From Candidatus Eiseniibacteriota bacterium (GTDB taxonomy: Bacteria; Arandabacterota; Arandabacteria; JAGLYR01), in assembly GCA_023132135.1 (NCBI GenBank), contig JAGLYR010000022.1, positions 1 through 18,632 of the forward strand: a DNA stretch of 18,632 nt. The letters run 5' to 3'. How positions within the stretch are numbered: position 1 is the stretch's first letter; the number at the start of each line of letters is the position of its first letter. Positions 672 to 18,632 of the stretch are shown here, piece by piece. Position numbers and translations under genes: made by a program. The notes beneath the pieces were generated by a model. That model had not been told where the DNA came from. It saw only the letters and a program-made list of their open reading frames with translations, and ran no database searches.

Positions 672-687
672 GGGATCTCCCCTGGGT

Positions 688-2181: not shown

Positions 2182-2208
2182 CGCTACCTCATCTCCGAAG
2201 TTCCCAAA

Positions 2209-2934
2209 CTACGAGCCGATGGATGACTGCGCCAGCTTGCCCAGGACCCCGGCAACGTTGAACATCATATGGATGACAATGGCCGGGACAAGGCTTCCCG
2301 TCTTTTCCCGGTAGTACCCGGCCACAATACCCAGAACCGTGGTGGCGAACACGATCACGGCCACCAGAGGACCCGGCGTGTTTCCGATCAGGATCAGGTG
2401 CGACATGCCGAAGGCCGCCCCCGCAAGGATCACAGGAAGGCTGAGGCGAACCCGCAGCAACTGGATTCCGTGAGTCCCCAGCGGCGCAAGGAAACTCTGG
2501 ATCAGCCCCCGGTAGAGGACCTCCTCGGCGATGCTTGCCAGGATGAGGATCGAGGTGAACATCTGGAGCGCTGTCATCCCCTTGGTGGGCCCCATCCCCT
2601 CGCCCAGGATGCCGCGCCCGCCAATCATGACCATCAGCATCGTGGGAATCATGCTCGCTGCAATCACAGTGACCGCACCTGCCAAGATGGCTTTGGGAAT
2701 GACGCGGACGGAAACCCCCTTGAATCCGTACGCCCCGAAGTCACCGCCGCTCATCACCCGGATGAGGACCAGCGACAGGATGAGCATTGCCAGATGCGTG
2801 AACACACTGCCTGCGATCCAGGAATCCGGCCCCAGCCACTCTCCGAACACCTTGACCGACCCTACACCCAAAGTCACGGCGTACGAAGCCGCGCACAGTA
2901 CGATCGCCCAGATCACACGGCATGGATTCTTCAT
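2209..2934 (-). CDS. CPBP family intramembrane metalloprotease
   Basis: Predicted 241-residue multi-pass membrane protein of the CPBP (Rce1/CAAX-protease-like, formerly Abi) family. The three conserved motifs are present in order: EEVLYR (E137, E138, R142), FGMSH (F175, H179) and HMMFN (H222, N226), which supply the glutamate and histidines of the active site. Hydrophobic segments alternate with short loops throughout. The frame can also open at a TTG at 2940, but AGAGGA sits 8 nt before the ATG at 2934 and too close to the TTG, so the ATG is chosen. It is the first gene before gltX and glnS. Bacterial members have been linked to bacteriocin self-immunity, sortase-like processing or protein maturation; the substrate here is unknown. 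The domain call is firm and the role is not. Confidence 0.9.
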   Translation of the reverse strand: MKNPCRVIWAIVLCAASYAVTLGVGSVKVFGEWLGPDSWIAGSVFTHLAMLILSLVLIRVMSGGDFGAYGFKGVSVRVIPKAILAGAVTVIAASMIPTMLMVMIGGRGILGEGMGPTKGMTALQMFTSILILASIAEEVLYRGLIQSFLAPLGTHGIQLLRVRLSLPVILAGAAFGMSHLILIGNTPGPLVAVIVFATTVLGIVAGYYREKTGSLVPAIVIHMMFNVAGVLGKLAQSSIGS

Positions 2935-2977
2935 GGCCAATGTCCTCTCAGTCTCGGGGGAATGGTCTGCGGCCCAT

Positions 2978-3007
2978 ACAATAGCGACAAGCCAACGGGG
3001 GGCACAA
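2978..3007 (-). promoter_or_regulatory. Possible sigma-70-like promoter for CPBP-gltX-glnS
   Basis: On the minus strand, TTGTGC (3002-3007) and TATTGT (2978-2983) are 18 bp apart, about 45 bp upstream of the CPBP start codon. This is the best -35/-10 pair in the 168-bp gap, but it is not a strong match and was found by eye. Confidence 0.35.
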
Positions 3008-3090
3008 CAGATATTTGCCGAGTGCGAGAGTGGGGTGGGCGTTGTCGCTCTGTCCCCCCGGGTTCCACCCCGACCATCCCTCGCCGGTCA

Positions 3091-3111
3091 TAGCCTGGGT
3101 TATTCAGGCTA
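3091..3111 (-). other. Short hairpin across the RND gene stop codon
   Basis: TAGCCTG (3091-3097) and CAGGCTA (3105-3111) form a perfect 7-bp stem with a 7-nt loop, and the TAG stop codon of the RND gene lies in one arm. No T-tract follows on the minus strand, so a classical intrinsic terminator is not supported. It could protect the mRNA 3' end or assist termination. The rest of the gap to the CPBP gene holds only the possible promoter described separately. Confidence 0.3.
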
Positions 3112-6100: not shown

Positions 6101-6186
6101 TATCCGAAGATCCCCAACACGACGAAGGCCAGAACCAGCATCGTGGTGAAAACGGGTCGTCGAACTGAAAGATCAGAAAGAAACAT
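3109..6186 (-). CDS. RND (HAE1-like) efflux pump, inner-membrane subunit
   Basis: Inner-membrane pump of a tripartite efflux system, of AcrB/MexB type by architecture: 1025 residues, TM1 at about residues 12-31, a large periplasmic loop, a TM2-TM6 block (about 335-480), a second periplasmic loop, and TM8-TM12 near the C-terminus. The opening FLSDLSVRRPVF and the YPGAGPEEIE block are typical of the family. The proton-relay positions are unusual. Where AcrB has D407-D408 in TM4, this protein has T399-N400 (VLVTNSIIVIENI), and where AcrB has K940 in TM10 it has N929 (VVNNAILLLDY). The TM11 arginine is kept. Energy coupling may therefore differ from AcrB. The ATG follows GGGAGG inside the end of the adaptor gene, 3 bp away, so translation is probably coupled. 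The substrate is unknown. Confidence 0.95.
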   Translation of the reverse strand: MFLSDLSVRRPVFTTMLVLAFVVLGIFGYLRLSVDLMPDVDFPFVTITTIYPGAGPEEIESQITKRIEDAVSTLAGVDLMESISRESVSFVIMRFELERDSDDAANDVRARVDAILNDLPEGAEKPQVLKFEIGAFPIISLSVSSDRGVNQTFALADETVRDRLAQVSGVATIDIIGGQKREIQVAVDRRKLDYYNLPISAVTRAVAMENMNVPEGRIIEPEQEFTIRTLGQFASVEEIACLRIPLPGGGFISLKDIAIVRDTFEEARSGARFNGQEAVQVDVVKRAGANTIDTADGIYKAVEELRKELPPDFVIEYARDSSVFIRDTVEDVLQNILIGILLTSVLLYVFLRNVRVTLVAAVVMPSAIISSFLLIQASGFTINMLTLMALGISVGVLVTNSIIVIENIVRHLQKGKAPDEAAMTGTNEVALAVVASVMTNIVVFVPIAFMRGIVGRFFLQFGMTVVFATIFSLIISFTLTPMLSSVVLKRMGGRRDSKDESRDEREGQGVPRHWMDRRMNSLAESYRGLLTWSLARARNRSFLMLATVVMFFLGLVLIGVSGGEFMPRIDQGTVYVAVKLPAGSSLRMTERSVIEIENILAAEPDVVSILSTIGGAGRGVNEATVLAKLVDISRRDRSAYQMSNDLRPKLAGVPGVDISVAGGEQEGGSSGDLEIEVMGDELETLKGLTSQVLAIVASIPGLVDVESSWEEGGEELVFIPDREEMARRDLSTGLVAALLRNSFEGDDSSVFREGGEEYAIRVQFDDEDRQDQRTLEEIRIAAGEVPVPLTQLGRVEKQRGEAEILRRERQRRITVRANIAEGTVSEAVSVIRARTDQLALPPGYRIKFAGEYEFQEESFAAIFEALILAIILTYVVLAMILESFIHPITVMITLPLGLVGSAIGLFFGGQTINLMSLMAMVMLVGIVVNNAILLLDYVGQLRRRGRGLEEAIVEGCPVRLRAVIMTNLAIAVGMIPQALGTGAGFEYRTAMAVVTMGGVLVSAFFTLVIIPSLYYSFEQIMAKIR

Positions 6187-6189
6187 GCG

Positions 6190-7368
6190 CTATTTCCTCC
6201 CGGCCCAAGTACCGAAGCGCTCTTCCGTAAGATCCGCGTGGATCTTCACCTTCGCCCCGTCTTCCAGGTTGTTCTGCCCCCAGACGACCACCCACTCACC
6301 GGAGACCAACCCATCGGAGACGGCAACGAACGCCCCGTTCCCCACCCCCCGGCGGATGTCTCTGAGGCGGGCTCTCCGATTCCCCTCAGGACCATCGACG
6401 ACATAGATGAACTCTCGCCCGTCATGCTGGAGAACCGCCGCGGGAGGAATCACCGGCCGGTCATCCACCGAAGCCACAAGAATCTCGGGGGTCACCAGCG
6501 CGCCGGGCCGAAGAACACGTCCGACGTTGTCCACCACGACTTCCACCGCGAAGAGCCGCGTTTGCGGATCCGCGCTCAAGGCGGCCTTCGCGACAGAACC
6601 CCTGAGGAGCAGACTATCCTCGGCCGGGTCCAGGCTCGCCGAAGGATCGCTGGAACAGCCCCGCGCGCCCATCCCGCGACGACCGGGCCGGAGCCGGACC
6701 GCTAGTCCGACCTGGATCAGAGCGCGTTCCGCCTCGCTGACTTCCAGCCGGATCCGAACGCGGTCATAGGAGGACACGGTGGCCAGGATCTGTTCGTCGG
6801 CAGCGTAGTCCCCGTCATCCACGTTGACCGCCGTCACGATGCCGGAGATCGGCGTGTCCAGCTCCACCGCCCGCCTTGCAGTCCGGTAGTGAGCTCGGGC
6901 CGCCTCGGTGGCTGCGCGGACGTGATCCACCTCCTGCTGCGACACCGCGCCGCTTCGGAAGAGTTCCTCGATCCGCAGGCTGTCCACCCGCGCCGTTTCG
7001 TACTGTGTTTCTGCGGTTCGCAGGTTCATCGCGATGCGCGCGGGATCGTAAGTGTCGAGAGAGACAATAACTTTGCCGGCCGGAACTTCGTCCCCGACCT
7101 CTGCATGCACCTTCTCCACCCGGGTCCGGAAGGGCGCCATGAGGTCCACTTGGTCGTACCCTTCTGCGACCCCTACGAACTCGCGCCAGTCCTCCACCGG
7201 CATCGTCTCCGTACGAACAACGTCGACGGGAATACCCTCCCTCTCCTGTACAGACTCGATGCTCTGGACTTCTTCCTTCTGCAACCTGCGCACTCCCGTG
7301 ACTCCGAACACCACGGCAACAACGGCGATGACCAGAACCCAAAGTCCGACCTTGGCGCCACGACTCAT
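6190..7368 (-). CDS. RND efflux periplasmic adaptor (membrane fusion protein)
   Basis: Periplasmic adaptor of the AcrA/HlyD family that bridges the RND pump to the outer-membrane channel; 392 residues. An N-terminal membrane anchor (about residues 7-26) without a lipobox cysteine suggests an anchored rather than lipidated protein. A lipoyl/barrel-sandwich half (about 65-105) is followed by a helical hairpin (about 106-170) and a return lipoyl half with LDTPISGIVTAV, then a beta-barrel and a membrane-proximal domain (PVIPPAAVLQHDG...). A stretch near residues 228-255 (GRRGMGARGCSSDPSASLDP) looks like a lineage-specific insertion in the beta-barrel. The ATG is preceded by GAGAAGGAG within the end of the TolC-type gene, 6 bp away, and the pump gene begins 3 bp downstream. 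It presumably works with both neighbours. Confidence 0.94.
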   Translation of the reverse strand: MSRGAKVGLWVLVIAVVAVVFGVTGVRRLQKEEVQSIESVQEREGIPVDVVRTETMPVEDWREFVGVAEGYDQVDLMAPFRTRVEKVHAEVGDEVPAGKVIVSLDTYDPARIAMNLRTAETQYETARVDSLRIEELFRSGAVSQQEVDHVRAATEAARAHYRTARRAVELDTPISGIVTAVNVDDGDYAADEQILATVSSYDRVRIRLEVSEAERALIQVGLAVRLRPGRRGMGARGCSSDPSASLDPAEDSLLLRGSVAKAALSADPQTRLFAVEVVVDNVGRVLRPGALVTPEILVASVDDRPVIPPAAVLQHDGREFIYVVDGPEGNRRARLRDIRRGVGNGAFVAVSDGLVSGEWVVVWGQNNLEDGAKVKIHADLTEERFGTWAGRK

Positions 7369-7374
7369 GGACGT

Positions 7375-8826
7375 CTACTCCTTCTCAGGGTGCGCGGGCG
7401 CCTGGGACGTGCGTCCCAGGACCCGTTCCAGATTGGCGATAGCCACGTTGTATCGATAAAGAGTTTCGGCGAAATTCGTTCGGGCAAAGTTCAGCGCGGT
7501 CTCCGCATCCGTCAGTTCCAGATGCGTGGAAAGACCGCTGCGGAACCGCGTCTGCGCAATAGCGTAGGTCTCCTCGGCCAGCTCGACCGTCGCGACCTGG
7601 GACTCGTATTCCTGCCCCAGGCTTTCGAGATCCTGGACTGCTTTGGTCGCCTCTAGGCGAATACCCTTTCGGGCCCGTTCCAGTTCGTACTCCGCCCGGC
7701 GAAAACTCGCCTTTGCCTGCTGGACTTTCCCCCGCGTCCGGAAACCGTCGAAAATCGGGATCCGCAGAGCAATCCCCGCCGAAGCCGAGATGGCGCGCCG
7801 CGCACCATAGAAGGGACCCGTCAGGCTGCTCTTGCTGGCGTGGCCCTGCATGGCCACCTGGCCGTAGAGACCCAGGGTCGGAAGGAGCCCGGCCTTCTCG
7901 ATGGCCAGGATCATCTCTTTCCCCCTCACATTGAGATCCAGGGAGAGCATTTCCGGGCGCTGCCGGAGCGCTTCCAGAACCGCCGATTCCAGGGGGATCT
8001 CAAGCGGATCGAAACCAAGCGAATCGGTCAGCACGGGATCCGGGTCGGCTTCAAGACCCAGGACCTGCTTCAAATCCTGTATGGAGAGAGCAAGAGTGTT
8101 CGTTGCACTAATGACCTCGGGTTCGCGATTCTTGACCTCGACCTGCGCGCGCAGGAGCTCGTAACGAGACGCTGTCCCCTGATCGTATTTCTGCTCCACC
8201 TCGGTCAGATGGGAGCGCGCCTGCTCGAGAGATTGTCTCCGAATATCCGCGACCTTCCGCAGCAGCAGGACACGGAAGTAGGCCTCTCTTGCAGAGAAGA
8301 TTACTCCGCTTCGGGCCTGCTCGACTCCCTGCGCTGAAATATCCTTGTAGATGTTGGCGAACTTGAGAGCATTGCCGACGCGGCCAAAGGCGTAGAGAAC
8401 CTGGTCCACCCGGATCCGTCCCTGGACTTCTATGTCCTCCCCCATCTCGAACTTCCCGCCTTCGAATTCCTCGGGCGCGAAGAACACCGGCCTCTTGAAG
8501 TTGCCCTGGTAGATCCCCTCGAAGGAAACGCTGGGCAGGGCCCCCGCCCAGGCTTCCTTGACGGCCCCCTTGGCTCGCTTCTCATCCTCCTGAGCAATCA
8601 GGAGAGCCTCGTTGTTCCTTTCCGCCAGCGAGACCGCTTCCTCCAGCGAGAGATGCCGCACCCCGGCGGGCGGCGCTGCGCCTGCCGGATTCCACGGGGA
8701 GATCATGAGGATCACAAGCGAGAGGCCGAACACCCAACCCGGGAACAGGAAATCCTCCCGAAACGAAACCCCACGGCGGTGTTCCTCCTGATTCTCGACA
8801 TACTCTCCGATCGAACTCACCTCCAT
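7375..8826 (-). CDS. TolC family outer-membrane efflux channel
   Basis: Outer-membrane channel protein of the TolC/OMF family; 483 residues from the chosen start, within the family's usual range. After a hydrophobic signal region (about residues 30-48, ending near AGAAPPAG) comes SLEEAVSLAERNNEALLIAQED, the standard OMF opening, then two repeats of long amphipathic helices. The second repeat has LPTLGLYGQVAMQG and a C-terminal helix with GLSTHLELTDAETALNFARTNF. The open frame extends upstream to 8913, but that would overlap the flavin reductase gene by 77 bp, so the ATG at 8826, 10 bp after that gene's stop, is preferred. Even this start leaves an unusually long polar segment before the hydrophobic core, so the true start may be further in. 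Adaptor and pump genes follow with tiny gaps. Confidence 0.93.
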   Translation of the reverse strand: MEVSSIGEYVENQEEHRRGVSFREDFLFPGWVFGLSLVILMISPWNPAGAAPPAGVRHLSLEEAVSLAERNNEALLIAQEDEKRAKGAVKEAWAGALPSVSFEGIYQGNFKRPVFFAPEEFEGGKFEMGEDIEVQGRIRVDQVLYAFGRVGNALKFANIYKDISAQGVEQARSGVIFSAREAYFRVLLLRKVADIRRQSLEQARSHLTEVEQKYDQGTASRYELLRAQVEVKNREPEVISATNTLALSIQDLKQVLGLEADPDPVLTDSLGFDPLEIPLESAVLEALRQRPEMLSLDLNVRGKEMILAIEKAGLLPTLGLYGQVAMQGHASKSSLTGPFYGARRAISASAGIALRIPIFDGFRTRGKVQQAKASFRRAEYELERARKGIRLEATKAVQDLESLGQEYESQVATVELAEETYAIAQTRFRSGLSTHLELTDAETALNFARTNFAETLYRYNVAIANLERVLGRTSQAPAHPEKE

Positions 8827-8836
8827 TCCAGGCAGC

Positions 8837-9328
8837 CTACGGATAGACACCCCGTTCTTCCCCCAGCGCGTAGTAGACCCGATTGAACAGAACGAGGGCG
8901 GACTTCGATTCATCCGCTACCGTTCTCACGACCTTCCCGTAGAACACCGTGTGGTCGCCCACAGTGTGGTGCGACACAACCTTGCACTCCAGCCAGGCCC
9001 GCGCTCCAGCAATGTGAGGGGCCCGGATCTCTTCCCCCGGAAGGATCTCCACCTTCTCCTGCGCCGGCTTGTCCACATCGCGCCCGCTCGTCGTCCCTCC
9101 CAGTGTCGCGAGTTCCTTCTGGTCGTCGGCAAGAATCGAGACACCGAACTCGCCGGCCTTGAGGATGAGATCGTGGGTGTGACGTCCGGGGGCGATGCTG
9201 ACCATGAGAATCGGCGGGGCAAAGGAAACAGGAGACGCCCAACCGACTGTCATGAAGTTGGTCTCTTTCTCCGTAGTGACTGTAACCAGTATCACGGGAT
9301 CGGGGAACTGGCTCGAATACTTCGCCAT
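8837..9328 (-). CDS. Flavin reductase family (FMN-binding split barrel) protein
   Basis: Soluble 163-residue protein of the flavin reductase-like (DIM6/NTAB, FMN-binding split-barrel) family. The N-terminal half shows the family pattern PVILVTVTTE...NFMTVGWASPVSFAPPILMVSIAPGRHTHDLI, and the second half has the GRDVDK and WLECKVV segments. Members bind FMN and reduce flavin or small acceptors with NAD(P)H, often supplying a partner monooxygenase or oxidoreductase; no such partner is seen in the window. The ATG at 9328 has a strong site (GAGGAGG, 5 nt spacing). It is the first gene of the TolC-adaptor-RND operon, 10 bp before the TolC-type gene. The context suggests a detoxification or redox role coupled to efflux, which is inference. 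Confidence 0.88.
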   Translation of the reverse strand: MAKYSSQFPDPVILVTVTTEKETNFMTVGWASPVSFAPPILMVSIAPGRHTHDLILKAGEFGVSILADDQKELATLGGTTSGRDVDKPAQEKVEILPGEEIRAPHIAGARAWLECKVVSHHTVGDHTVFYGKVVRTVADESKSALVLFNRVYYALGEERGVYP

Positions 9329-9358
9329 CCATGCCTCCTCGGGTTTAGCTTGTCTGCG

Positions 9359-9387
9359 ACGGTATCCATCCGCAGGTCAAAATTCAA
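9359..9387 (-). promoter_or_regulatory. Probable sigma-70-like promoter of the flavin reductase-TolC-RND operon
   Basis: In the 102-bp gap upstream of the flavin reductase, TTGAAT (9382-9387) and TACCGT (9359-9364) are exactly 17 bp apart on the minus strand, about 30 bp from the start codon. The short inverted repeat AGGAAGATTCCT (9387-9398) abuts the -35 box and could be an operator, though repeats this short are common by chance. The same TACCGT -10 with 17-bp spacing occurs before FTCD. Confidence 0.5.
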
Positions 9388-9430
9388 GGAAGATTCCTCG
9401 CCTGCCCTCGAGACGCCCTCCCCTCTTGCA

Positions 9431-10561
9431 CTACGTGAACCTCTTCTGGAATCTCAGCACCGCGCCTGTGAAGGTCACGACGCCAATGGCGGCCAATGGC
9501 ACAAGATCAGAAGCCACGTCGGGCAGCGTCGCCCCCTGGAGGAAAATGCCCCGCACCATGCTCATCATGTAGCGGAAGGGATTGAGATACGTAAGCCATT
9601 GCACCTCCCGGGCCATGTTCTCGATCGGGTAGAAAAACCCGCTCATCAGGATGCCGAACACGAGGAAAAACCAGAGCGTGAACATCGCCTGCTGCTGCGT
9701 GGCGGACACGGTGGACACCAGAAGTCCCACGCCCAGAGTCACAAGAAGGTAGGCCATCGCACAGCCGGCCAGAAGCAGGACAGACCCTTCGAAGGGCAGC
9801 CTGAACCACAGGACCGCCACTGTTGTGGCGAAAGCCAGCTCCAGGAACGCCAGTACAACAATGGGAATCGTCTTGCCCGCAATGATTTGTCCGGATGTAA
9901 GAGGACTCACCATGAGCTGCTCAAGAGTCCCGATTTCCCTCTCACGTACCACTGCGATCCCGGTCAGCATCGCGGAAACGATGGTAATGATGAGGACGAC
10001 GATTCCAGGCACCATGTAGTGGCGACTCCGGAGCTCGGGGTTGTAGTAGAACCGGGAATCGGCGTCCACGCGGTGGGTCCGCGCCGCCAGACCCGGATGC
10101 GCGAGGGCAACCTTCTCCAGCCGTGCCAGCGATTCCTGCCGGACGATGGCCGTGGCATATCCCATAACTCGCCCGGCCACATTCCCGTTCACGCCGTCAA
10201 CGGTGACTGCAACCGAAGCGGGATCTCCCCGGGCCAGGTCCTCGGAGAATCCGCGGGGAATCCAGAGAGCTGCGTCGGTTTTGCCCTCCAGAAGAAACCG
10301 ATCGAGATCCCGAGGCGCGCCGGCCGCCGGCCCCGGGACAAACACATCTGAGGCGTAGTATGCGTCAACCAGCCTCCGACTTCCCTCGCTCCGGTCCTCG
10401 TCCAGCACCGAAACCCGAACATTCTTCAGGTCTGTGTTGGCCGCGTAGCCAAAGACAAAGAGCTGGATCATGGGCACAACCAGAACCACCCGAAGCAGGG
10501 CGCGGTCACGAAAGAGCTGTCGCAACTCCTTCTGTGCAATCCAGAAAATCGGTCGAAACAC
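9431..10561 (-). CDS. ABC-2 type transporter permease (YbhR-like)
   Basis: Inner-membrane permease of an ABC-2 exporter; 376 residues. One transmembrane helix lies near the N-terminus (about residues 22-42), then a periplasmic domain of roughly 130 residues (including VSVLDEDRSEGSRRLVD), then about five transmembrane helices in the C-terminal half. The cytoplasmic signature REREIGTLEQLMVSPLTSGQIIAGK is split around residues 207-231. This layout matches YbhR/YbhS and related permeases. The start codon is GTG at 10561, with AAGGGAG 7 nt upstream that overlaps the preceding permease's stop; the gap is 12 bp. It is the last gene of the adaptor-ATPase-ATPase-permease-permease cluster and should heterodimerise with its neighbour. 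By family analogy, substrates may be drugs or cations; none can be read from the sequence. Confidence 0.92.
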   Translation of the reverse strand: MFRPIFWIAQKELRQLFRDRALLRVVLVVPMIQLFVFGYAANTDLKNVRVSVLDEDRSEGSRRLVDAYYASDVFVPGPAAGAPRDLDRFLLEGKTDAALWIPRGFSEDLARGDPASVAVTVDGVNGNVAGRVMGYATAIVRQESLARLEKVALAHPGLAARTHRVDADSRFYYNPELRSRHYMVPGIVVLIITIVSAMLTGIAVVREREIGTLEQLMVSPLTSGQIIAGKTIPIVVLAFLELAFATTVAVLWFRLPFEGSVLLLAGCAMAYLLVTLGVGLLVSTVSATQQQAMFTLWFFLVFGILMSGFFYPIENMAREVQWLTYLNPFRYMMSMVRGIFLQGATLPDVASDLVPLAAIGVVTFTGAVLRFQKRFT

Positions 10562-10573
10562 CGGAGCACTCCC

Positions 10574-11680
10574 TTATTCCATTGTGGTTTCGAATTTCTT
10601 CACCGCCATTGCCATCAACAGGAGGGCCATCCCCACCATCACACCGCCCTCCAGCGGAAACCAGATTCTCCCCTTCAACATGATGCCCCGGATCACTTCC
10701 AGGTAGTAAGTCGCAGGAATAATCTGCCCAATCCACTGCAGGGGCCACGGCATGCTGGCTCGGGGAAAAATGAATCCCGAAAGCAGCATCGTCGGGAGCA
10801 GCGTGGCCATCAGCGCCATGATCATGGCTACCCGCTGGGTCGCTGCCACGGCCGAGATCAGAAGTCCCAGCGCCAGGGCGATCAGGAGGTAGATCAAACT
10901 GTATCCGGCCAGGACCCACCAAGAACCATGCATGGGGACCCCGAATACGAAGCGTCCCGCCAGGAGAACGAGCGCGCCGTCTGCCGACCCAATCAGGAGA
11001 TACGGCAGGACTTTACCGATGACCAGTTGGCGAGGAGTTATTGGAGTCGTTAGAACCTGCTCCATTGTACCGGTCTCTTTTTCCCGGGTAATCGCGATGC
11101 TGGTAAGAAGCGCACAGATCATCACCAGTACGATGGCCACAAGCCCGGGAACAATGAAGTTGTCGCTTTCGAGCTGGGGATTGAAGAGGACCCGGACGCG
11201 GGCCCCCATGGGGAGCTCCGCCGATCCCGGCCGCCCGGCGGCGATCCCACTGTTGAACAGCAGGATAGCGGCTCTCAGGTAGTTGTCCACCGCGGCTGCA
11301 GTTGTCGCGTCCGCCCCGTCAATCAGAACCTGCACTCTGCTCACGGGCTCCCGAACCAGGGATTCCGCAAACCCTCGCGGGATCACTACTACCGCCCGGA
11401 AGCGGCCCCGCCGGAAGCCCGGCTCCACTTCCTCGCGCGAGGACAGGCGGCCCGCGTCCACGATGAACTGGCTGGACATCATGCGGGTGACAAGTTCCCG
11501 GCTCGCCGGACTCTGGTCCTCATCCAGGATGCCGACGGGCAGGTCGCTGAGTTCCATGTCTATCGCGTATCCGTAGAGGATCACCATCGCAATGGGCATG
11601 ATGATCGCAACCATGAGACTGCGCGGATCCCGCAGGATGTGGTACGTTTCCTTTCTCGCCAAAGCGAGGATTCGTCTCAT
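10574..11680 (-). CDS. ABC-2 type transporter permease (YbhS-like)
   Basis: Second permease of the same exporter; 368 residues with the same plan as its neighbour: one N-terminal helix (about residues 22-41), a periplasmic domain containing VGILDEDQSPASRELV, and a C-terminal membrane block. The signature REKETGTMEQVLTTPITPRQ lies between membrane segments. The two permeases are clearly homologous but well diverged, as expected for a heterodimer. The ATG at 11680 overlaps the stop of the upstream ATPase gene by 4 bp (ATGA), implying translational coupling and near-equal expression. The position between an ATPase and the second permease matches ybhS in the E. coli ybhGFSR operon. The symbol is not assigned because orthology was inferred only from order and motifs. 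Confidence 0.92.
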   Translation of the reverse strand: MRRILALARKETYHILRDPRSLMVAIIMPIAMVILYGYAIDMELSDLPVGILDEDQSPASRELVTRMMSSQFIVDAGRLSSREEVEPGFRRGRFRAVVVIPRGFAESLVREPVSRVQVLIDGADATTAAAVDNYLRAAILLFNSGIAAGRPGSAELPMGARVRVLFNPQLESDNFIVPGLVAIVLVMICALLTSIAITREKETGTMEQVLTTPITPRQLVIGKVLPYLLIGSADGALVLLAGRFVFGVPMHGSWWVLAGYSLIYLLIALALGLLISAVAATQRVAMIMALMATLLPTMLLSGFIFPRASMPWPLQWIGQIIPATYYLEVIRGIMLKGRIWFPLEGGVMVGMALLLMAMAVKKFETTME

Positions 11681-12468
11681 CGCCCGACCACCTGCAGGAA
11701 AACGTCCTGCATTGTCCCAGCTCCGGTTTGCTGCTTCAGTCGCGCCGGGGAGTCCAGGGCCACCACTCGGCCATCCACCATGATCGACACCCGGCGGCAG
11801 TACTCCGCCTCATCCATGTAGTGGGTCGTGACGAAAATGGTCGTGCCCCCATCCGCCAGTTCATAGATGAGATCCCAGAATTGGCGCCGGGCCAGCGGAT
11901 CGACTCCTCCCGTGGGCTCGTCCAGGAAAAGTACGCTGGGCGAATGCAGGACCGCGCAACCCAGAGCAAGACGCTGCTTGAACCCGAGAGGCAATGACGA
12001 AGTCAGGCGACGGCGATAGTCCTTAAGGCCGAGACGCTCCAGCAACAGATCTCCGCGCTCGGTGACTTCCCGGCGACTCAACCCGTAGATTCCTCCAGTG
12101 AAGGATACATTCTCCTGGATCGTGAGATCATCGTAGAGACCGAATCTCTGGCTCATGTAGCCGATACGACGCTTGATCTTCTCGGGCGCGGCGACCACCG
12201 GAAACCCGTCTACCCAAGCCTCCCCCTCCGTGGGAGCCAGCAATCCACAGAGCATCCGGATCGCCGTCGTTTTCCCCGCCCCATTCGCGCCAAGAAAGCC
12301 GAAGATCTCCCCTCTCTCGACCGAGAAGCTGATCCCGTCCACAGCGGTGAAATCACCAAAACGACGAGTGAGACCCTGGACCAAAACCGCGTACTTCCCC
12401 GGTGCAACATCTCCGGCCGACATCGATGCCGTCGGCACTCCTTCCATCCCTGCTCCTCTGCCCTTCAT
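11677..12468 (-). CDS. ABC transporter ATP-binding protein (matches C-terminal half of YbhF)
   Basis: Cytoplasmic nucleotide-binding subunit; 263 residues. Walker A is GANGAGKTT (60-68), the Q-loop glutamine is in GYMSQR (Q107), Walker B is VLFLDEP with GGVDP after it (179-191), and the H-loop is TTHYMDEA with H216 intact. The ABC signature is degenerate, LPLGF at 159-163 in place of LSGGQ. From memory, the C-terminal half of E. coli YbhF is similar there. Its own catalytic residues are complete, so it should form a working ATP site together with the intact LSGGM signature of the partner ATPase. ATG and stop overlap the upstream ATPase and downstream permease by 4 bp each. A roughly 25-residue leader before the domain leaves a slightly later start possible. 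Confidence 0.94.
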   Translation of the reverse strand: MKGRGAGMEGVPTASMSAGDVAPGKYAVLVQGLTRRFGDFTAVDGISFSVERGEIFGFLGANGAGKTTAIRMLCGLLAPTEGEAWVDGFPVVAAPEKIKRRIGYMSQRFGLYDDLTIQENVSFTGGIYGLSRREVTERGDLLLERLGLKDYRRRLTSSLPLGFKQRLALGCAVLHSPSVLFLDEPTGGVDPLARRQFWDLIYELADGGTTIFVTTHYMDEAEYCRRVSIMVDGRVVALDSPARLKQQTGAGTMQDVFLQVVGR

Positions 12469-13400
12469 CCGGCCGCCTCCGGGCTGTGAGTCACAAGAGA
12501 GATGAAGGTGTCTTCGATCGTAGGCTCCACTGGACCCACGCGGACATCCACCCGGGCCAGTGCCTCCCGGATACCCGCGTCCTCCTCTTCCAGGTCATGC
12601 ACGACGTGCAGGCGATCTCCAAAACGATGCACGTCGACACCTGGCCACCGCAAGCCCACAATTCTCTCCCGGGCCTTGGCTATGCCCGGTCCGGTAACCT
12701 CCAGGAGTCGCTGCCCGAACCGGCTCCTGACTTCGCCCGGTGTGCCTGAGGCAACCGCACGCCCCCGATGCATGAGGATCAGCCGGTCGAACAACGCGGC
12801 CTCCTCCATGTAGGGCGTACTTACGAGAAGAGCCATTCCCTCCCCTGCCAGATCCCGGAGGATGGTCCAGAACTCGCTGCGGCTGACCACGTCCACTCCT
12901 GTGGTGGGCTCATCCAGGATCAGAACATCGGGCGTGTGAATCAACGTGCAGCACAGGGCCAGCTTCTGTTTCATCCCTCCCGAGAGGGCGCCGGCCCGTC
13001 TGCCGAGGAAGGGCGCCAGCCCGCTGAACGCCATCAGTCGCTCCTGACGTTCCCGGCGCTCGGAAGACGAAACCTCGAAGAGATCGGCGAAGAACCGGAG
13101 ATTCTCCGCCACGGTGAGATCGGAGTAGAGGCTGAAACGTTGTGGCATGTAGCCGATATGTTCCTTGACCCGTTGGCCCTCCTCCCTGCAATCCAATCCC
13201 ATCACACGGGCAAATCCGTCATCGGGTCGAACGAGTCCGCAGACAGTCCCCATGGCCGTTGTCTTGCCGGCGCCGTCGGGACCGATGAGGCCGACAATCT
13301 CGCCGTGCTCGACCCGCAGCGAGAGTCCATCGAGAGCGTTGATCTCGCCGTAGCGCTTCCGTAGACCCTCGACGAGAATCGGGATAACGGTGTCTGTCAT
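12465..13400 (-). CDS. ABC transporter ATP-binding protein (matches N-terminal half of YbhF)
   Basis: Cytoplasmic nucleotide-binding subunit; 311 residues. Walker A is GPDGAGKTT (40-48), the Q-loop is GYMPQR (Q87), the signature LSGGMKQ (139-145) is intact, and Walker B is VLILDEP (159-165). The H-loop histidine is replaced by proline: STPYMEEA with P196, where active ATPases have STHYMDEA. This predicts that its own ATP site is weak or inactive. A C-terminal extension of about 85 residues follows the core domain. Together with the next ATPase the length (about 574 residues) equals a fused YbhF, so this looks like a split version. ATGA overlaps link it to the adaptor gene upstream and the ATPase gene downstream. 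The symbol is withheld for the same reason as for the permeases. Confidence 0.94.
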   Translation of the reverse strand: MTDTVIPILVEGLRKRYGEINALDGLSLRVEHGEIVGLIGPDGAGKTTAMGTVCGLVRPDDGFARVMGLDCREEGQRVKEHIGYMPQRFSLYSDLTVAENLRFFADLFEVSSSERRERQERLMAFSGLAPFLGRRAGALSGGMKQKLALCCTLIHTPDVLILDEPTTGVDVVSRSEFWTILRDLAGEGMALLVSTPYMEEAALFDRLILMHRGRAVASGTPGEVRSRFGQRLLEVTGPGIAKARERIVGLRWPGVDVHRFGDRLHVVHDLEEEDAGIREALARVDVRVGPVEPTIEDTFISLVTHSPEAAG

Positions 13401-14317
13401 GATGATTTCCTAGCCGCGGGCTGAAGGCGGACTTCCGCCGGCATTCCGATGTGCAGCCGGCCGTGCGGGTTTGCGAGCCGGAGCTTTACAGCGTACACCA
13501 GCTGGGCCCGCGCTTCGCGAGTTTGAACATTCCTGGGCGTGAACTCTGCTTCCGAGCTGATCCAGATCACCGTACCCGTGAGCTCCTCTCCTTCCAGCGC
13601 GTCCACCAGAACCCGCAGAGCTTGTCCGACCCGTACGAGATCCAAGTCCTCTTCGCCCAGGAATATCCGCAGTTCCATTTTCGAGAGATTCGCTATACGC
13701 ATCAGCGTCCCGCCGGGAACGGCCATCTCCCCCGGTTGGGTGGCTCGGACGAGCACGGTTCCATCCAATGGCGCAGTCAGAACACCGTCCTGCAGCTGCC
13801 GGTCGAAGACCGCCAGCGCCGCATTCACCTTGGCCTGTTCCGCTGCAAAGACCTCCAACCGCTTCCGGGCCGCTGTCAGGCGGGAGGCGGCCACGTCTCG
13901 CTGTGTCGTCAGATCGTCCACCCGTTGCTGGGTTGCACTTCCCTCATCCAAGAGAACCTCAAGCCTGCGGAGTGTGGTTTCCGCCAGCTCAAGACTCCGC
14001 TTTGCCTGCCGGATGTCTTCTTCCGCCAGCCGGCGCTGGGCGACGATACTCTGTTGGTTCGCTTCTGTCTGCGCCCGCTGGAGCCGGATGAGCTCCGTAT
14101 CGAGCACGACCAGCGTATCTCCCAGCGACACTCGATCCCCCAACCGCGCCCGGACTTCGAGAACTCTCCCGCCGATGGCCGGCGCCACGTTGATCTTCGT
14201 TGCTTCCAGGGTGCCCGACGGATTCGCTCTCTCCGGGGCCCCTCCGCATCCCGTCATCATCCACGCAACAAGCACTACCAGCGCCGCTGCCCGGAGCTTT
14301 CCGGTCCCGACCTTCAT
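13397..14317 (-). CDS. HlyD-type periplasmic adaptor lipoprotein (YbhG-like)
   Basis: Periplasmic adaptor of the ABC exporter; 306 residues. From the ATG at 14317 the N-terminus is a clean lipoprotein signal: MK, a hydrophobic core, then the lipobox MTGC with the cysteine at residue 24. A lipoyl half (about 33-66, ATKINVAPAIGGRVLEV) is followed by a long helical hairpin (about 70-170) and the return half with LTAPLDGTVLVRATQPGE, then a beta-barrel. An in-frame ATG at 14341 also has a good site (GAGGAGAAGGAG); 14317 has GGGAGG at 7 nt and gives the more normal signal peptide, so it is preferred. The stop overlaps the first ATPase by 4 bp. The gene order adaptor-ATPase-ATPase-permease-permease mirrors ybhGFSR. 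It would connect the permeases to an outer-membrane channel, possibly the TolC-type protein encoded downstream. Confidence 0.92.
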   Translation of the reverse strand: MKVGTGKLRAAALVVLVAWMMTGCGGAPERANPSGTLEATKINVAPAIGGRVLEVRARLGDRVSLGDTLVVLDTELIRLQRAQTEANQQSIVAQRRLAEEDIRQAKRSLELAETTLRRLEVLLDEGSATQQRVDDLTTQRDVAASRLTAARKRLEVFAAEQAKVNAALAVFDRQLQDGVLTAPLDGTVLVRATQPGEMAVPGGTLMRIANLSKMELRIFLGEEDLDLVRVGQALRVLVDALEGEELTGTVIWISSEAEFTPRNVQTREARAQLVYAVKLRLANPHGRLHIGMPAEVRLQPAARKSS

Positions 14318-14380
14318 CCGCGGGCCTCCCGTGTTTCTCATTGCTCCTTCTCCTCAGTTCGGAACATACGCACTCACCGG

Positions 14381-14392
14381 CGGCCATGGCCG
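14381..14392. promoter_or_regulatory. 12-bp palindrome, possible operator of the ABC exporter operon
   Basis: CGGCCATGGCCG is a perfect palindrome lying just downstream of a possible -10 box, where a repressor would block initiation. E. coli ybhGFSR is controlled by a TetR-family regulator, which makes an operator plausible. Four or five palindromes of this length are expected by chance in a window this size, so the call is weak. Confidence 0.25.
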
Positions 14393-14402
14393 ATCGTGAA
14401 AC

Positions 14403-14431
14403 ACCCTACCAGACGCAGAGATGGAGCGCAA
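14403..14431 (-). promoter_or_regulatory. Weak candidate promoter of the ABC exporter operon
   Basis: On the minus strand, TTGCGC (14426-14431) and TAGGGT (14403-14408) are 17 bp apart, about 85 bp upstream of the preferred adaptor start codon. The match to consensus is modest. No better pair was seen near the start. Confidence 0.3.
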
Positions 14432-14687
14432 CAAGTCCACGCCCGTCCCCTCCGGCGCAGCCCGAATCGGGTCATGTCCCCCAGAATCCCCCATCGCCCC
14501 GGGGCCTTTTCCTCAACCGCCTGTGCCGAGCGGCAAATCCCTGGTCCCGGCGGCATCGCGTCCGCCGATCACACCCGTGCAAGGACACGCAACGGAACAA
14601 CCTGGATCCTGTCATGATCGCAAGGACCCGCGACGGAGGAATTCCCGCAAACCGAAAGATTGACTCGTCCGCCTCCCCGACCAACTC

Positions 14688-14702
14688 TGGCACGCTACGT
14701 GC
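14688..14702 (+). promoter_or_regulatory. Sigma-54-type promoter in front of the predicted small RNA
   Basis: TGGCAC-N5-GTGC matches the -24/-12 consensus TGGCAC-N5-TTGC at nine of ten fixed positions. The invariant GG (14689-14690) and GC (14701-14702) are exactly 10 bp apart. Initiation is predicted near 14714. Such promoters need an enhancer-binding ATPase; no clear upstream activator site was identified. A similar promoter precedes the related element near the right end of the window. Confidence 0.65.
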
Positions 14703-14713
14703 ATTGGGGATAG

Positions 14714-14882
14714 GGCGACAACCAAATAGAGCTCGCCCCCGAGCTTCCCTGCAGTGTTCGTGATCTGATTCGTGGGCCGACTTCAAAAACCCTTGACGCG
14801 CGGGCTTCACACGGAACTCGACACGACACAGGCGGGGACACTAAACAGAGAAGAGGAGCCATCTGGCTCCTCTTTTCTGTTT
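14714..14882 (+). ncRNA. Predicted sigma-54-dependent small RNA, about 169 nt
   Basis: I do not recognise this RNA. It is predicted from three signals in line: a sigma-54-type promoter, a 30-nt element at 14718-14747 shared with 18601-18630 (24/30 identical, all changes transitions), and a strong terminator at the end. The element folds as AGCTCG-CCCC-CGAGCT (14730-14745), a 6-bp stem with a four-C loop. A central stretch may pair GTTCGTG (14756-14762) with CACGGAAC near 14810. No ATG-started frame of note exists, only very short GTG frames. FTCD has its own promoter beyond the terminator, so this looks like a free-standing RNA rather than the FTCD leader. An attenuated leader is the main alternative. 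The C-rich loop could pair with G-rich ribosome sites, which is speculation. Confidence 0.55.
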
Positions 14883-14883
14883 A
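14842..14883 (+). terminator. Strong intrinsic terminator of the predicted small RNA
   Basis: A 19-bp stem (14842-14860 with 14865-14883) contains one G-U pair and closes on the loop ATCT. The GC-rich core AGGAGCC/GGCTCCT is followed by TCTTTTCTGTTT on the plus strand. The T-run is better on the plus strand than on the minus strand. It lies between two divergent protein genes, where no protein transcript needs to end, so it marks the end of some other transcript. Confidence 0.85.
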
Positions 14884-14896
14884 ACGCTCTTTTCCA

Positions 14897-14925
14897 TTGA
14901 CGGAACCCCCTTCTCCCACTACCGT
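14897..14925 (+). promoter_or_regulatory. Probable sigma-70-like promoter of FTCD
   Basis: TTGACG (14897-14902) and TACCGT (14920-14925) are exactly 17 bp apart, just after the terminator and about 105 bp before the FTCD start codon. This would give FTCD a transcript of its own, with a leader of roughly 100 nt. Confidence 0.5.
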
Positions 14926-15030
14926 CCTAGTCTACCTACCACGACAAAAACCGGTCGACGACGGCAGTCATCCGCTATCCAGCGGACCGGCGTCGGCCTG
15001 TTCACGAACCACAGGAGGACGGCGGCAACC

Positions 15031-16704
15031 ATGCTCAAGCTCGTAGAGTGCGTTCCCAATTTCAGCGAGGGGCGGGACCGGGCCCTCATCGACGCTATCA
15101 CCAAGCCAATCGCCGATGCGCAGGGGATCCAGCTTCTCGATGTGGATCCGGGGCCCGACACGAACCGGACGGTCGTGACCTTCATCGGAGAGCCGGACGC
15201 AGTCGTGGAGGCCGCCTTTGCGGCAATCGCGAAAGCAGTCGAGCTCATTGACATGAGTCAGCATCACGGCGAACACGCGCGCATGGGCGCAACCGACGTG
15301 TGTCCCTTCGTGCCGGTAGCGGGCGTGACCATGGACGATTGTATCCAGCTGGCTCACCGGCTCGCAAAGCGGGTTGCCGAGGAGCTGTCCATCCCCGTCT
15401 ACCTCTACGAGAACGCAGCTCAGAAACCGGACAGGCGCAATCTGGCGGATGTCCGCAAGGGAGAATACGAAGGGCTTCCGGACAAACTCAAGGATTCACA
15501 GTGGGCGCCGGACTACGGAGAGCCTGTCTTCAGCGCCCGCTCTGGAGCCACCATCATTGGCGCCAGGGAATTCCTCATCGCATACAACATCAACCTGAAC
15601 ACGCGTGATCCGCGATTGGCCAAGGACATCGCCCTCAGCATACGACAGCAAGGACGCGCCAAGCGCGACGCGAACGGGAAAATCGTTCGCGACGAGAACG
15701 GCAAGACCGTCAAGGTTCCCGGGGTTCTCAAGTGCTGCAAGGCAACGGGCTGGTACCTGGAGGCTTTCGAGACCGCCCAGGTATCCATGAACCTGACCGA
15801 CTACCACGTGACCTCGCTCCATGCGGCGTTCGAGGAGGTCCGGAAACAGGCCAATGCCCGCGGTCTCCGGGTAACCGGGTCCGAACTCGTGGGGCTCATC
15901 CCCAAAGAGGCCATGCTCATGGCGGGCCGCTACTACCTGGAGAAACAGGGCAAGTGCCCATCGGTGCCCGAGAAGGAGCTGATCCGGGTCGCGATTCGCT
16001 CTCTGGGAATGAGCGAGATTGCTCCTTTCGATCCCCGGAAAAAGATCATGGAGTACCAGTTCGGAAGCGACGTGAACCTGACCGGGATGACGGTATCGGA
16101 TTTCGCCGATGAGCTGTCCGCGGACTCCCCCGCGCCCGGAGGCGGATCGGTTTCCGCTTTGCTCGGTTCCCTTGCCGCGTCCCTGACCGCGATGGTGGCC
16201 AACCTGACCTTCGCCAGCAAGGAGTACCGGGACCTGCGGCCGGAGATGACGGACATCGCCGCCAAGGCGCAGGCGGCCAAGGAGGAGTTTCTCTCCCTGG
16301 TCAATCAGGACACCGAGGCGTTCAACATGTACATGGCGGCCCGCAGACTCCCCCGCAAGACAGATGCGGACAAGGCCCGCCGCGAGACGGAAATCCAGGA
16401 GGCCACCCGCAGCGCAACCCTGGTTCCGTTGAATATCCTCAGGCGCGTGCCGGCGGTGCTGGATCTGGCCCGGAGCATCATCGACAAGGGAATGCAGAGC
16501 TCCGTGAGCGACGGTGGAGTGGCCGCTGCGGCCGCGCGCGCCGCAGCCGTAGGCGCCTGCTACAACGTCCGCATCAATCTTCCCGGGATTGAGGACAAGG
16601 ACTTCGTCAGGGAAACCGGGGAAGAGGCTACGCGCATTCTCAACAACTGCATCGCCGCCCAGGAAGAAATTGCGGGGGTGATGGAGGATAAACTCAAGGT
16701 GTGA
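15031..16704 (+). CDS. Bifunctional glutamate formimidoyltransferase / formimidoyl-THF cyclodeaminase
   Basis: Fused folate enzyme (FTCD) of the glutamate branch of histidine breakdown. It moves the formimino group from formiminoglutamate to tetrahydrofolate, then deaminates it to 5,10-methenyl-THF and ammonia. The transferase domain covers about residues 1-330, with VECVPNFSEGRD at the start and HHGEHARMGATDVCPF; H82 matches the catalytic histidine reported for the mammalian enzyme. The cyclodeaminase domain follows from about residue 352, with SPAPGGGSVSALLGSLAASL (APGGGS at 368-373). The 557-residue length is close to that of animal FTCD. A lysine- and aspartate-rich insertion (about 211-231) separates two transferase segments. 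AGGAGG lies 12 nt before the ATG, a long spacing. No other hut genes are in the window, so it appears to be encoded alone. Confidence 0.96.
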   Translation: MLKLVECVPNFSEGRDRALIDAITKPIADAQGIQLLDVDPGPDTNRTVVTFIGEPDAVVEAAFAAIAKAVELIDMSQHHGEHARMGATDVCPFVPVAGVTMDDCIQLAHRLAKRVAEELSIPVYLYENAAQKPDRRNLADVRKGEYEGLPDKLKDSQWAPDYGEPVFSARSGATIIGAREFLIAYNINLNTRDPRLAKDIALSIRQQGRAKRDANGKIVRDENGKTVKVPGVLKCCKATGWYLEAFETAQVSMNLTDYHVTSLHAAFEEVRKQANARGLRVTGSELVGLIPKEAMLMAGRYYLEKQGKCPSVPEKELIRVAIRSLGMSEIAPFDPRKKIMEYQFGSDVNLTGMTVSDFADELSADSPAPGGGSVSALLGSLAASLTAMVANLTFASKEYRDLRPEMTDIAAKAQAAKEEFLSLVNQDTEAFNMYMAARRLPRKTDADKARRETEIQEATRSATLVPLNILRRVPAVLDLARSIIDKGMQSSVSDGGVAAAAARAAAVGACYNVRINLPGIEDKDFVRETGEEATRILNNCIAAQEEIAGVMEDKLKV

Positions 16705-16711
16705 AACGCCG

Positions 16712-16731
16712 GGGTGACGCATGCGTCACCC
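16712..16731. terminator. Perfect 20-bp palindrome between convergent genes, probable bidirectional terminator
   Basis: GGGTGACGCATGCGTCACCC is a perfect palindrome 7 bp after the FTCD stop, and its last base is the first of the stop codon of the minus-strand gene. As RNA it gives an 8-bp stem with a CATG loop from either strand. The following T-tract is weak (TACTCTTTC on plus, none on minus), so a protein-binding site is the alternative. A 20-bp palindrome is unlikely by chance in this length. Confidence 0.55.
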
Positions 16732-18359
16732 TACTCTTTCACATTCCTCACGGCACGCAGCAACCGCTGGAGATCCACTCCTTCCCGGTAGTACAGGTAC
16801 TTCGGCCTCGTCTCCTTACCCGTGAGCGAACCCAGCAACCCGGCCCGGATTCCCAGCTCATCAAGCGTCACTCGCCTGTAACCAAACCGCTTTTCCAGAC
16901 CGGCCGATATCCTGTCCACTATGATCACCGGGAAGCGTCCGCTCTCCAATCCCCGCTCGTTGTCCTGCTCGAAGATCGGGAAGAGCACAGCGTGGGGAGA
17001 CAGATCCCTGGACGCCATCGCGTGATAGTGGTTGTCCTCAAGACATCCGGTCAACACCGCGGCATTCCGGGTCGGCATCAGGACCCGGCCGTCCACGGCT
17101 CTCACCAGAGCGGCCAATTGCCGAGCCGCAAACCTGCGCTCGTGTGTAACCCGCTGACCGCCAACATCAATGCTCAGTGCACCCGTCACACTGGAGATCA
17201 GAATCATGACGAGAACGACCGTCAGCACAACGGGGGCCGCCGGACCCGCAGGAGCAGTCTGTCCACCCCCATCTTCCCCGGCCATCGATCCCTCCAACCT
17301 GCGAAGGACCACACCCGCCGAGTAGAACCCAAGCAGTCCCAGCAGGAAGTAGGCGGGAATGAACGCATTCTCGTAGCCGCCCCACTTGGCCCGCGTCAGC
17401 AGCGACACCGCGACCGCAGCCAGGGCAAACAATCCGAGGAGCCTCAACCGTCCCCTGTTCCCGCTGTGGAGACACCGCCAGGCCGCGAAAAAGAGCGACG
17501 CGCTCAGGGCAACCAGAATCGGACGAAACATGTACAGGTTCCTGATCGCCAGTGAGAAAGCAGCTGTGAAACTCTTCTTCCACCACCCGTGTGTCCGGGG
17601 CACTTCGAAGATGTAGGTGAAGGCAAGACGTCCCTCGCCAAGGAAGAGACTGCCCCACAGAAGCAGATTGACTACGGCGGAGGCGATCGCGAAGACAGCC
17701 AGCCCGCGCCAGTTGCGGTCCAGCACCAGGTGGAGCGCAAGAGCGAGTGCAAAAAGAGCGAAGCTCTGTTTTCCGAAGGAGGCCAGGGCCAGCAGAGCGG
17801 CAGCGGTAATGACATTGGCCCCGCGGTGCTCTCTCATGTTCAGCAAAGCGAAGACAGATCCCACGACGAAGAGCAGTGCCATGCCGTCGACCCTTACCAG
17901 ATCGAACCAGTATCCCGTAACTCCGTATGCCGCGAAGGGAGTCAGGAAAGCGAACCCGGCAAGAACGCTGTTCCTGTTTTCTTTCCACACGAGCCATCCC
18001 ACCAGCGCCGCGGTGCCAACGACACTCACCAGCGAAATCAACCTGGCGAACGTGAAACCGATGCCGGTGAGCCCGATGCCCAGGGCCGTCACATACGCGT
18101 ACAGCGGCGGGTAGATGAATGGGACGAACTCCTGCGAGGGCAGCTTGTAGATGCTCCCGGTCTTGATCAACTCGATCCCATGACCAAGAACAGCCCCCTC
18201 CATCCATTCGATATCAAGGGGACAGCTCAGACGGCTCAGTGCAATGGTGAGGAACTGGACGAAGGGAACGGTGGCGACAGCCAGGACGACGCAGGACAGC
18301 CACCGAACCGAGGACGGCATTCGGCCGTTCTTTGCTTCGGATTGAGCCGCTTCACCCAT
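16731..18359 (-). CDS. GT-C type membrane glycosyltransferase (GT39/PMT-like)
   Basis: Predicted 542-residue integral membrane protein with about eleven hydrophobic segments. After the first helix (about residues 20-42), the first outer loop contains CPLDIEWMEGAVL (D49, E51, E54), the acidic motif expected of polyprenol-phosphate-sugar-dependent GT-C enzymes, followed by FVPFIYPPLYAYV. This matches many bacterial proteins called glycosyltransferase family 39. They transfer a sugar from a lipid carrier to lipid, glycan or protein outside the inner membrane; donor and acceptor here are unknown. The frame stays open to a TTG at 18506, but that leader is not family-like. The ATG at 18359 has AGAGG about 11 nt upstream and is preferred; 18320 is a further option. 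It converges with FTCD, and no clear promoter was seen. Confidence 0.75.
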   Translation of the reverse strand: MGEAAQSEAKNGRMPSSVRWLSCVVLAVATVPFVQFLTIALSRLSCPLDIEWMEGAVLGHGIELIKTGSIYKLPSQEFVPFIYPPLYAYVTALGIGLTGIGFTFARLISLVSVVGTAALVGWLVWKENRNSVLAGFAFLTPFAAYGVTGYWFDLVRVDGMALLFVVGSVFALLNMREHRGANVITAAALLALASFGKQSFALFALALALHLVLDRNWRGLAVFAIASAVVNLLLWGSLFLGEGRLAFTYIFEVPRTHGWWKKSFTAAFSLAIRNLYMFRPILVALSASLFFAAWRCLHSGNRGRLRLLGLFALAAVAVSLLTRAKWGGYENAFIPAYFLLGLLGFYSAGVVLRRLEGSMAGEDGGGQTAPAGPAAPVVLTVVLVMILISSVTGALSIDVGGQRVTHERRFAARQLAALVRAVDGRVLMPTRNAAVLTGCLEDNHYHAMASRDLSPHAVLFPIFEQDNERGLESGRFPVIIVDRISAGLEKRFGYRRVTLDELGIRAGLLGSLTGKETRPKYLYYREGVDLQRLLRAVRNVKE

Positions 18360-18571
18360 TTTCCGGCGACCTCTTGGGCATTGCCCCCAATGAACCCGGC
18401 GGCTGCTCCCGGAACCTCGCATTACGTATCGCAGCAAACGCGGAAGTGACCGGCCAGAGCCAACCAAACAGCCGAAGCCGCTGCAAGCAATCTCCAGGAA
18501 ACACAAGGGCCCTGTTCATCCGCACTCCACAATGGATGAGCAACGGCACTACCGCCAGCCGGCTGCAGGCC

Positions 18572-18586
18572 TGGCACAGACCTTGC
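18572..18586 (+). promoter_or_regulatory. Sigma-54-type promoter, full match to the core consensus
   Basis: TGGCAC-N5-TTGC matches all ten fixed positions of the -24/-12 consensus, with GG (18573-18574) and GC (18585-18586) 10 bp apart. Start of transcription is predicted near 18598, pointing out of the window and away from the glycosyltransferase gene. A 10-bp palindrome, CAGCCGGCTG (18556-18565), lies just upstream, of unknown meaning. The remainder of the upstream region from 18360 shows no gene. Confidence 0.7.
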
Positions 18587-18597
18587 GTCAACCAGTG

Positions 18598-18632
18598 AGT
18601 ACAACTGAATAGGGTTCGCCCCCAAACTTCGA
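18598..18632 (+). ncRNA. Start of a second predicted small RNA of the same family (cut by window edge)
   Basis: The first 35 nt of a predicted transcript. Bases 18601-18630 match the element at 14718-14747 at 24 of 30 positions, and all six differences are transitions. The spacing from the -12 GC to the element differs by only 1 bp between the copies (15 and 16 nt). The hairpin is kept in part: the C-G pair of the first copy is T-A here (compensatory), an A-T pair becomes G-T, and one C-G pair becomes C-A (disruptive). The loop CCCC is unchanged. The 3' part and any terminator are outside the window. Confidence 0.5.

Follow-up and report, generated by a model that had tools for sequence, protein, structure and literature searches.

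Compact 6S-like RNAs with probable sigma-54 promoters in Candidatus Eiseniibacteriota and beyond

What is encoded by the short stretch that lies before the FTCD gene in a contig of Candidatus Eiseniibacteriota? The window, i.e., the whole 18,632-nucleotide stretch of DNA analysed here (contig JAGLYR010000022.1, positions 1 to 18,632), holds at that point what an earlier note had described as a free-standing small RNA gene with its own sigma-54 promoter and terminator, no open frame of note, which the note did not recognise as a known RNA family. Here this gene is termed sR1. It extends from about 14714, near which its start is predicted, to 14883, and consists, along with its promoter, of the following parts:

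14688..14702, + strand: sigma-54 (-24/-12) promoter of sR1, TGGCACGCTACGTGC, 9 of 10 core positions; kept before the genes of relatives
14718..14729, + strand: leader element of sR1, ACAACCAAATAG; conserved in the form ACAACTGAATAG in type II relatives (see below) and ahead of the class's canonical 6S genes
14729..14746, + strand: small hairpin of sR1 with a C-rich loop; confined to the two copies of this genome
14743..14842, + strand: rod-shaped, 6S-like core of sR1; Rfam 6S model positions 1-187, 26.6 bits; R3 model 94.7 bits; shuffle test
14842..14883, + strand: intrinsic terminator of sR1, with a 19-bp stem; terminator scan

The locus and its second copy

A scan of core positions bears out the promoter that had been claimed, at nine of ten. 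Such a match on its own nevertheless carries little weight, as about one as good is expected per window by chance, and as sites of this type number 42 genome-wide versus 41 for a reversed control, i.e., there is no excess. It is conservation, instead, which makes the sR1 promoter real. The claimed terminator stem was likewise found, with four terminator-like sites in the region versus 0.7 expected, and the predicted sR1 transcript folds at -79.5 kcal/mol (z of -6.9 versus shuffles). Open reading frames overlapping the sR1 stretch do exist, with coding support for none of them. The sigma-70-like promoter for FTCD which that note had placed beyond the terminator was not recovered by promoter scan.

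The 30-nt element at 14718-14747, which had been described as shared, indeed has a second copy, 80% identical, at 18601-18630. With this second copy begins another complete gene, sR2, as follows from an exact 150-nt overlap: positions 18483-18632 of the window are identical to L086:1-150, where contig C166 begins. Through this overlap C135 is joined to C166, and the assembly break falls inside the sR2 gene. The parts of sR2, with the adjoining operon, are these:

18572..18586, + strand: -24/-12 promoter of sR2, TGGCACAGACCTTGC, 10 of 10 core positions; start predicted near 18598
18601..18632, + strand: 5' part of sR2, leader and C-rich hairpin; exact contig overlap of 150 nt, 6S match of 19.3 bits, fold
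L086:152-252 (contig C166): continuation of sR2 with its core, the terminator reaching to about L086:288; read via the contig overlap
L086:326-6563, - strand: microcompartment (BMC) operon convergent to sR2; class II aldolase, EutN-type and BMC shell genes, PduP-type aldehyde dehydrogenase

Between the two genes the promoter positions are retained, the spacer and flanks have diverged, the cores are 73% identical, and the sR2 terminator is different yet equally strong. sR1 and sR2 are paralogous members of one RNA family, and this family is missing from Rfam 15 and thus probably unannotated in its hosts. The same BMC operon also holds a single open reading frame fusing RpiB and DeoC domains.

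The family in other genomes

A blastn search with the sR1 locus against 40 relatives gave no match beyond this genome. Several other searches were set aside: a short mismatch-tolerant pattern within the class, the matches of which were noise; a covariance model of the two copies alone (R1), which recovered no believable relative; an exact-pattern scan of a named genome collection, with nine matches all judged to be chance; and a 16-nt pattern from the core, run on viral contigs, where none of 11 matches was backed by the R3 model described below. With the R2 model, built from sR1, sR2 and a short 6S-like RNA of the relative G006, compact RNAs were recovered in every genome of the class, and these are of two types. 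Type II is marked by a -24/-12 promoter, by ACAACTGAATAG as leader and by GCCAGGTCGTGGGCTGATCTC as core. Type I RNAs, of about 118 nt, instead have a conserved CTTGA(CA) -35 region and stand beside guaA where checked; they include L090-L096 as well as the paralogues L098 and L100:

L090, L092, L093, L095, L096, about 1501-1620, + strand: type I RNAs, sigma-70-type promoter
L091, L094, L098, L100, - strand: type I RNAs, sigma-70-type promoter

Most genomes of the class have a type I RNA next to guaA, and G006 and G003 possess additional paralogues. None of these RNAs scores above 19 bits with the Rfam 6S model. Near the guaA-linked RNA, the cspA thermoregulator family gives matches of 26-32 bits, below its cut-off (L032:995-1361, L095:964-1324 and L092:782-1234, all on the - strand).

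A covariance model of the type II RNAs (R3), from which the promoter was left out and to which the genomes G003 and G005 did not contribute, finds the RNAs of both of these held-out genomes, with promoters of 9/10 and 10/10 each standing 29 nt before the leader. R3 detects a single copy per genome in the seven other genomes of the class and, among 386 genomes sampled across the domain, nine matches outside of the class. In a second phylum (that of G106; f102), the RNA and a -24/-12 site are present in 7 of 7 genomes examined. R3 is positive as well in six genomes of three further families, f72 (G076, G217, G346), f176 (G201, G332) and f69 (G073), which belong neither to the window's class nor to the G106-phylum genomes examined. 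It had no match in 156 kb of other loci.

Upstream of these genes a site of 9-10 out of 10 core positions is found, within about 60 nt or less, in 19 of 22 cases, versus a background of 0.6% of 75-nt stretches; six of the nine matches outside of the class in the 386-genome sample have such a site within 40 nt. Sites farther away are seen in G332 (10/10 at -79) and G073 (9/10 at -132), and in G201 the region upstream is cut by the contig end. G073 is retained as a doubtful member, given that its RNA precedes a BMC operon and that it does possess the distant site. The gene for sigma-54 itself, rpoN, is present in 8 of 8 class genomes, and no upstream activator (enhancer) motif common to the RNA genes rose clearly above shuffles. 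The nitrogen, envelope-stress or motility response offered as an example by the earlier note is accordingly supported neither way. Whether promoter and element are kept together in relatives had been set as a test by the earlier note. They are so kept in 8 of 8 class genomes, with promoter and core kept beyond the class as well. At the level of sequence, promoter, rod-like core and following terminator are shown to be retained as a unit, within the class as well as in lineages far from it. The earlier note's reading as a free-standing small RNA gene is borne out. The family, its fold and its predicted sigma-54 promoter are well supported.

What stands beside these genes bears on what they might do. 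In 13 genomes (the seven other class genomes, f72, f176 and f69) the RNA is followed at 70-446 nt, on the same strand, by the next BMC-locus gene, these genes including pduL where found, BMC shell genes, EutN-type genes and pduP; in G006 an unrelated open reading frame intervenes. Upstream of the class's BMC operon, molybdopterin oxidoreductase and RACo-type (corrinoid activation) genes are seen as well (L109:812-4735, L112:5372-9230). The RNA could act in cis, as 5' leader or attenuator to the BMC operon, read from the sigma-54 promoter and with the terminator setting read-through, which would account for its co-directional position directly upstream in those genomes and for the U-rich tails or terminator hairpins which follow it. 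In this genome, however, sR1 stands before FTCD and sR2 converges on the BMC operon. No BMC gene was found within the stretches read around the RNA in the second phylum, and in most genomes a TTGACA-type site comes after the RNA and before the BMC operon. The RNA goes with BMC loci in most lineages, but it is not simply a BMC leader, and a cis-acting role is judged to be improbable.

Alternatively, the RNA might sequester a protein regulator of the BMC operon. A free-standing RNA next to such an operon does resemble EutX (PMC5821096). Scanning with Rfam, including 12 relatives' loci, however, gave no cobalamin riboswitch nor match to another family, and in the second phylum the RNA is not at BMC loci within the stretches read. 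Sequestration seems a very distant prospect.

Fold and relation to 6S RNA

The rod fold, placed on 21 sequences, has 91.5% of its cells paired, versus at most 53% when slid. Of its 34 pairs, 14 are double-changed, versus 6.6 in shuffles and with 0 of 500 shuffles reaching 14, counts which are biased in that the alignment was fitted to the covariance model; an independent consensus fold regains the closing stems and inner helix. Covariation supports the rod. On the 5' side, the strand around GTCGTGGGCTGATC has changed much less than its pairing partner has, and it is this strand which we take, by analogy with E. coli 6S, to be the template of a product RNA. In this genome, both copies have drifted from the consensus of that strand.

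That sR1 should belong to no recognised family holds in part. At the gathering threshold Rfam reports no family, and the present one is absent from Rfam 15; its core, on the other hand, is 6S-like. At a permissive threshold the Rfam 6S model (RF00013) matches sR1 at 26.6 bits (E of 0.0007-0.001 over all families; E-values of these covariance searches are rough) and sR2 at 19.3 bits, with sR1, sR2 and L135 each matching that model from first to last position. All 6S scores, i.e., 19-29 bits, are below the curated cut-off of 46.4 bits, and no RNA of the family exceeds it among the 12 relatives' loci scanned, the best match being 6S at 29.2 bits (L135 locus). MicroRNA families likewise appear among the permissive matches. 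As stable hairpins attract matches by structure alone, base pairs were shuffled with the fold kept. Arm similarity to the 6S consensus was then reached in 1 of 20,000 shuffles for each of sR1 and sR2, and p was below 0.02 for 18 of 21 family members, with L148 marginal and L120 and L138 displaying no extra similarity in this test.

The closing stem and conserved arm motifs of 6S RNA thus are present in this family. The large central bubble, flanked by an upstream arm, is not, there being instead a small conserved internal loop and a short apical hairpin. With both the Rfam cut-off and the large bubble lacking, we describe the RNA as 6S-related and as outside of RF00013. A further tie is the leader: GTGACAACTGAATAGC occurs upstream of the canonical 6S gene in four class genomes, at 13-15 of 16 positions, which 0 of 2000 shuffles reach in each case. 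The canonical 6S genes of the class have this leader in common with the compact RNAs, but they have sigma-70 promoters; that of this genome, lacking the leader, scores 81 bits and has a sigma-70 promoter, as is the case in most relatives. It lies at L087:2524-2705, directly after guaB, and other canonical 6S genes of the class are at L026-L031. R3 also picks up type I RNAs, with E as low as 4e-5, and gives a weak match to one canonical 6S. Common descent of the compact core with 6S RNA is likely, judging from these similarities, as likely is derivation of this core from 6S RNA via loss of the upstream (-35-like) arm and of most of the central bubble.

A proposed role, and known systems

6S RNAs are known regulators of primary-sigma polymerase. 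Our reading, to which we assign a probability of roughly 60%, is that sR1 and sR2 are sigma-54-dependent, compact 6S-related RNAs that bind RNA polymerase as promoter mimics. Transcription, processing, polymerase binding, a product RNA and an effect on the BMC operon are here inferred. An enhancer-binding protein would activate sigma-54 polymerase and the RNA would be made; its leader, perhaps a processing signal, would be trimmed after transcription; and the rod would bind, most simply, the housekeeping holoenzyme. Release would come from a short product RNA for which the near-invariant strand GCCAGGUCGUGGGCUGAUC is the template, and which is predicted to start AUCAGCCCACG (GUCGGCCC for sR1). 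A sigma-54 signal would in this manner dampen sigma-70 transcription, for which the BMC operon with its own TTGACA-type site is a plausible target. B. subtilis 6S-1, cut to 78 nt by removal of its -35 arm, still templates product RNA and still binds polymerase, with an affinity lower by about tenfold (PMC8876501). As the truncated form still works, a natural compact form could as well, and a polymerase-binding RNA is favoured by this analogy. Against it are the 6S matches below cut-off, the small bubble and the weak recognition of canonical 6S by R3. A global polymerase decoy also leaves the link with the BMC operon unexplained.

The near-invariant strand may instead be read as a seed. Many known sigma-54-dependent small RNAs, such as Qrr and GlmY/GlmZ, act by base-pairing, and the RNA may be another, with GUCGUGGGCUGAUC pairing to mRNAs, perhaps that of the BMC operon, and with its likeness to 6S a remnant or convergence. 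The conservation of this strand, which far exceeds that of its partner, and the BMC operon adjoining in most lineages would fit. The GUCGUGGGCUGAUC stretch, however, is mostly paired within the covariation-backed rod, the arms are 6S-like, and the leader is one in common with canonical 6S. Base-pairing as the principal function we consider unlikely.

Polymerase binding has a more ambitious form as well, which we offer tentatively. These RNAs might be an old second branch of 6S made only by sigma-54 polymerase, such that an enhancer-binding-protein signal would repress housekeeping transcription directly via RNA, tied to a BMC switch in most lineages, with a conserved product RNA from the invariant strand that may itself act. 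No sigma-54-dependent 6S RNA was found in the literature, among a limited number of open-access papers. Activator-dependent sigma-54 control of a widespread 6S-related RNA would join two sigma-factor programmes by way of RNA, BMC operons would have an unexpected RNA partner, and laboratory minimal 6S would have a natural counterpart. The R3 model together with the promoter rule make the family easy to test.

Among known systems, paralogous small RNAs with -24/-12 promoters include, as here, Pxr of Myxococcus (PMC5568312), though Pxr was set aside as a relative, its published probe and primer sequences being unlike this core (PMC5568312). EutX/Rli55 similarly is a non-coding RNA adjoining a BMC operon, but has a cobalamin riboswitch, EutV-binding hairpins and a constitutive promoter (PMC5821096). 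Ms1 and the CoRP RNAs are 6S-like and bind RNA polymerase in other ways; by description they differ in being known from actinobacteria and of about 300-500 nt (PMC11077062). The truncated 6S-1 (6S78, PMC8876501) is, like the present core, a minimal 6S of similar size without a -35 arm; it is a laboratory construct, however, versus a natural conserved gene here. With 6S RNA itself (SsrS; RF00013) are held in common the rod, the CCCUG...CGGGG closing stem, the GUGUUCGUGA and GCYGA motifs, the leader, as found before the class's canonical 6S, and the occurrence of more than one copy per genome, as compare 6S-1 and 6S-2 of B. subtilis. The sigma-54-dependent, paralogous Qrr and GlmY/GlmZ, which also have -24/-12 promoters, are by contrast not 6S-like. 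From 6S RNA these compact RNAs differ in a core of about 100 versus about 185 nt, without the upstream arm and with little of the bubble left, in scores below the Rfam cut-off, in a -24/-12 rather than a sigma-70-type promoter, and in their place beside BMC operons.
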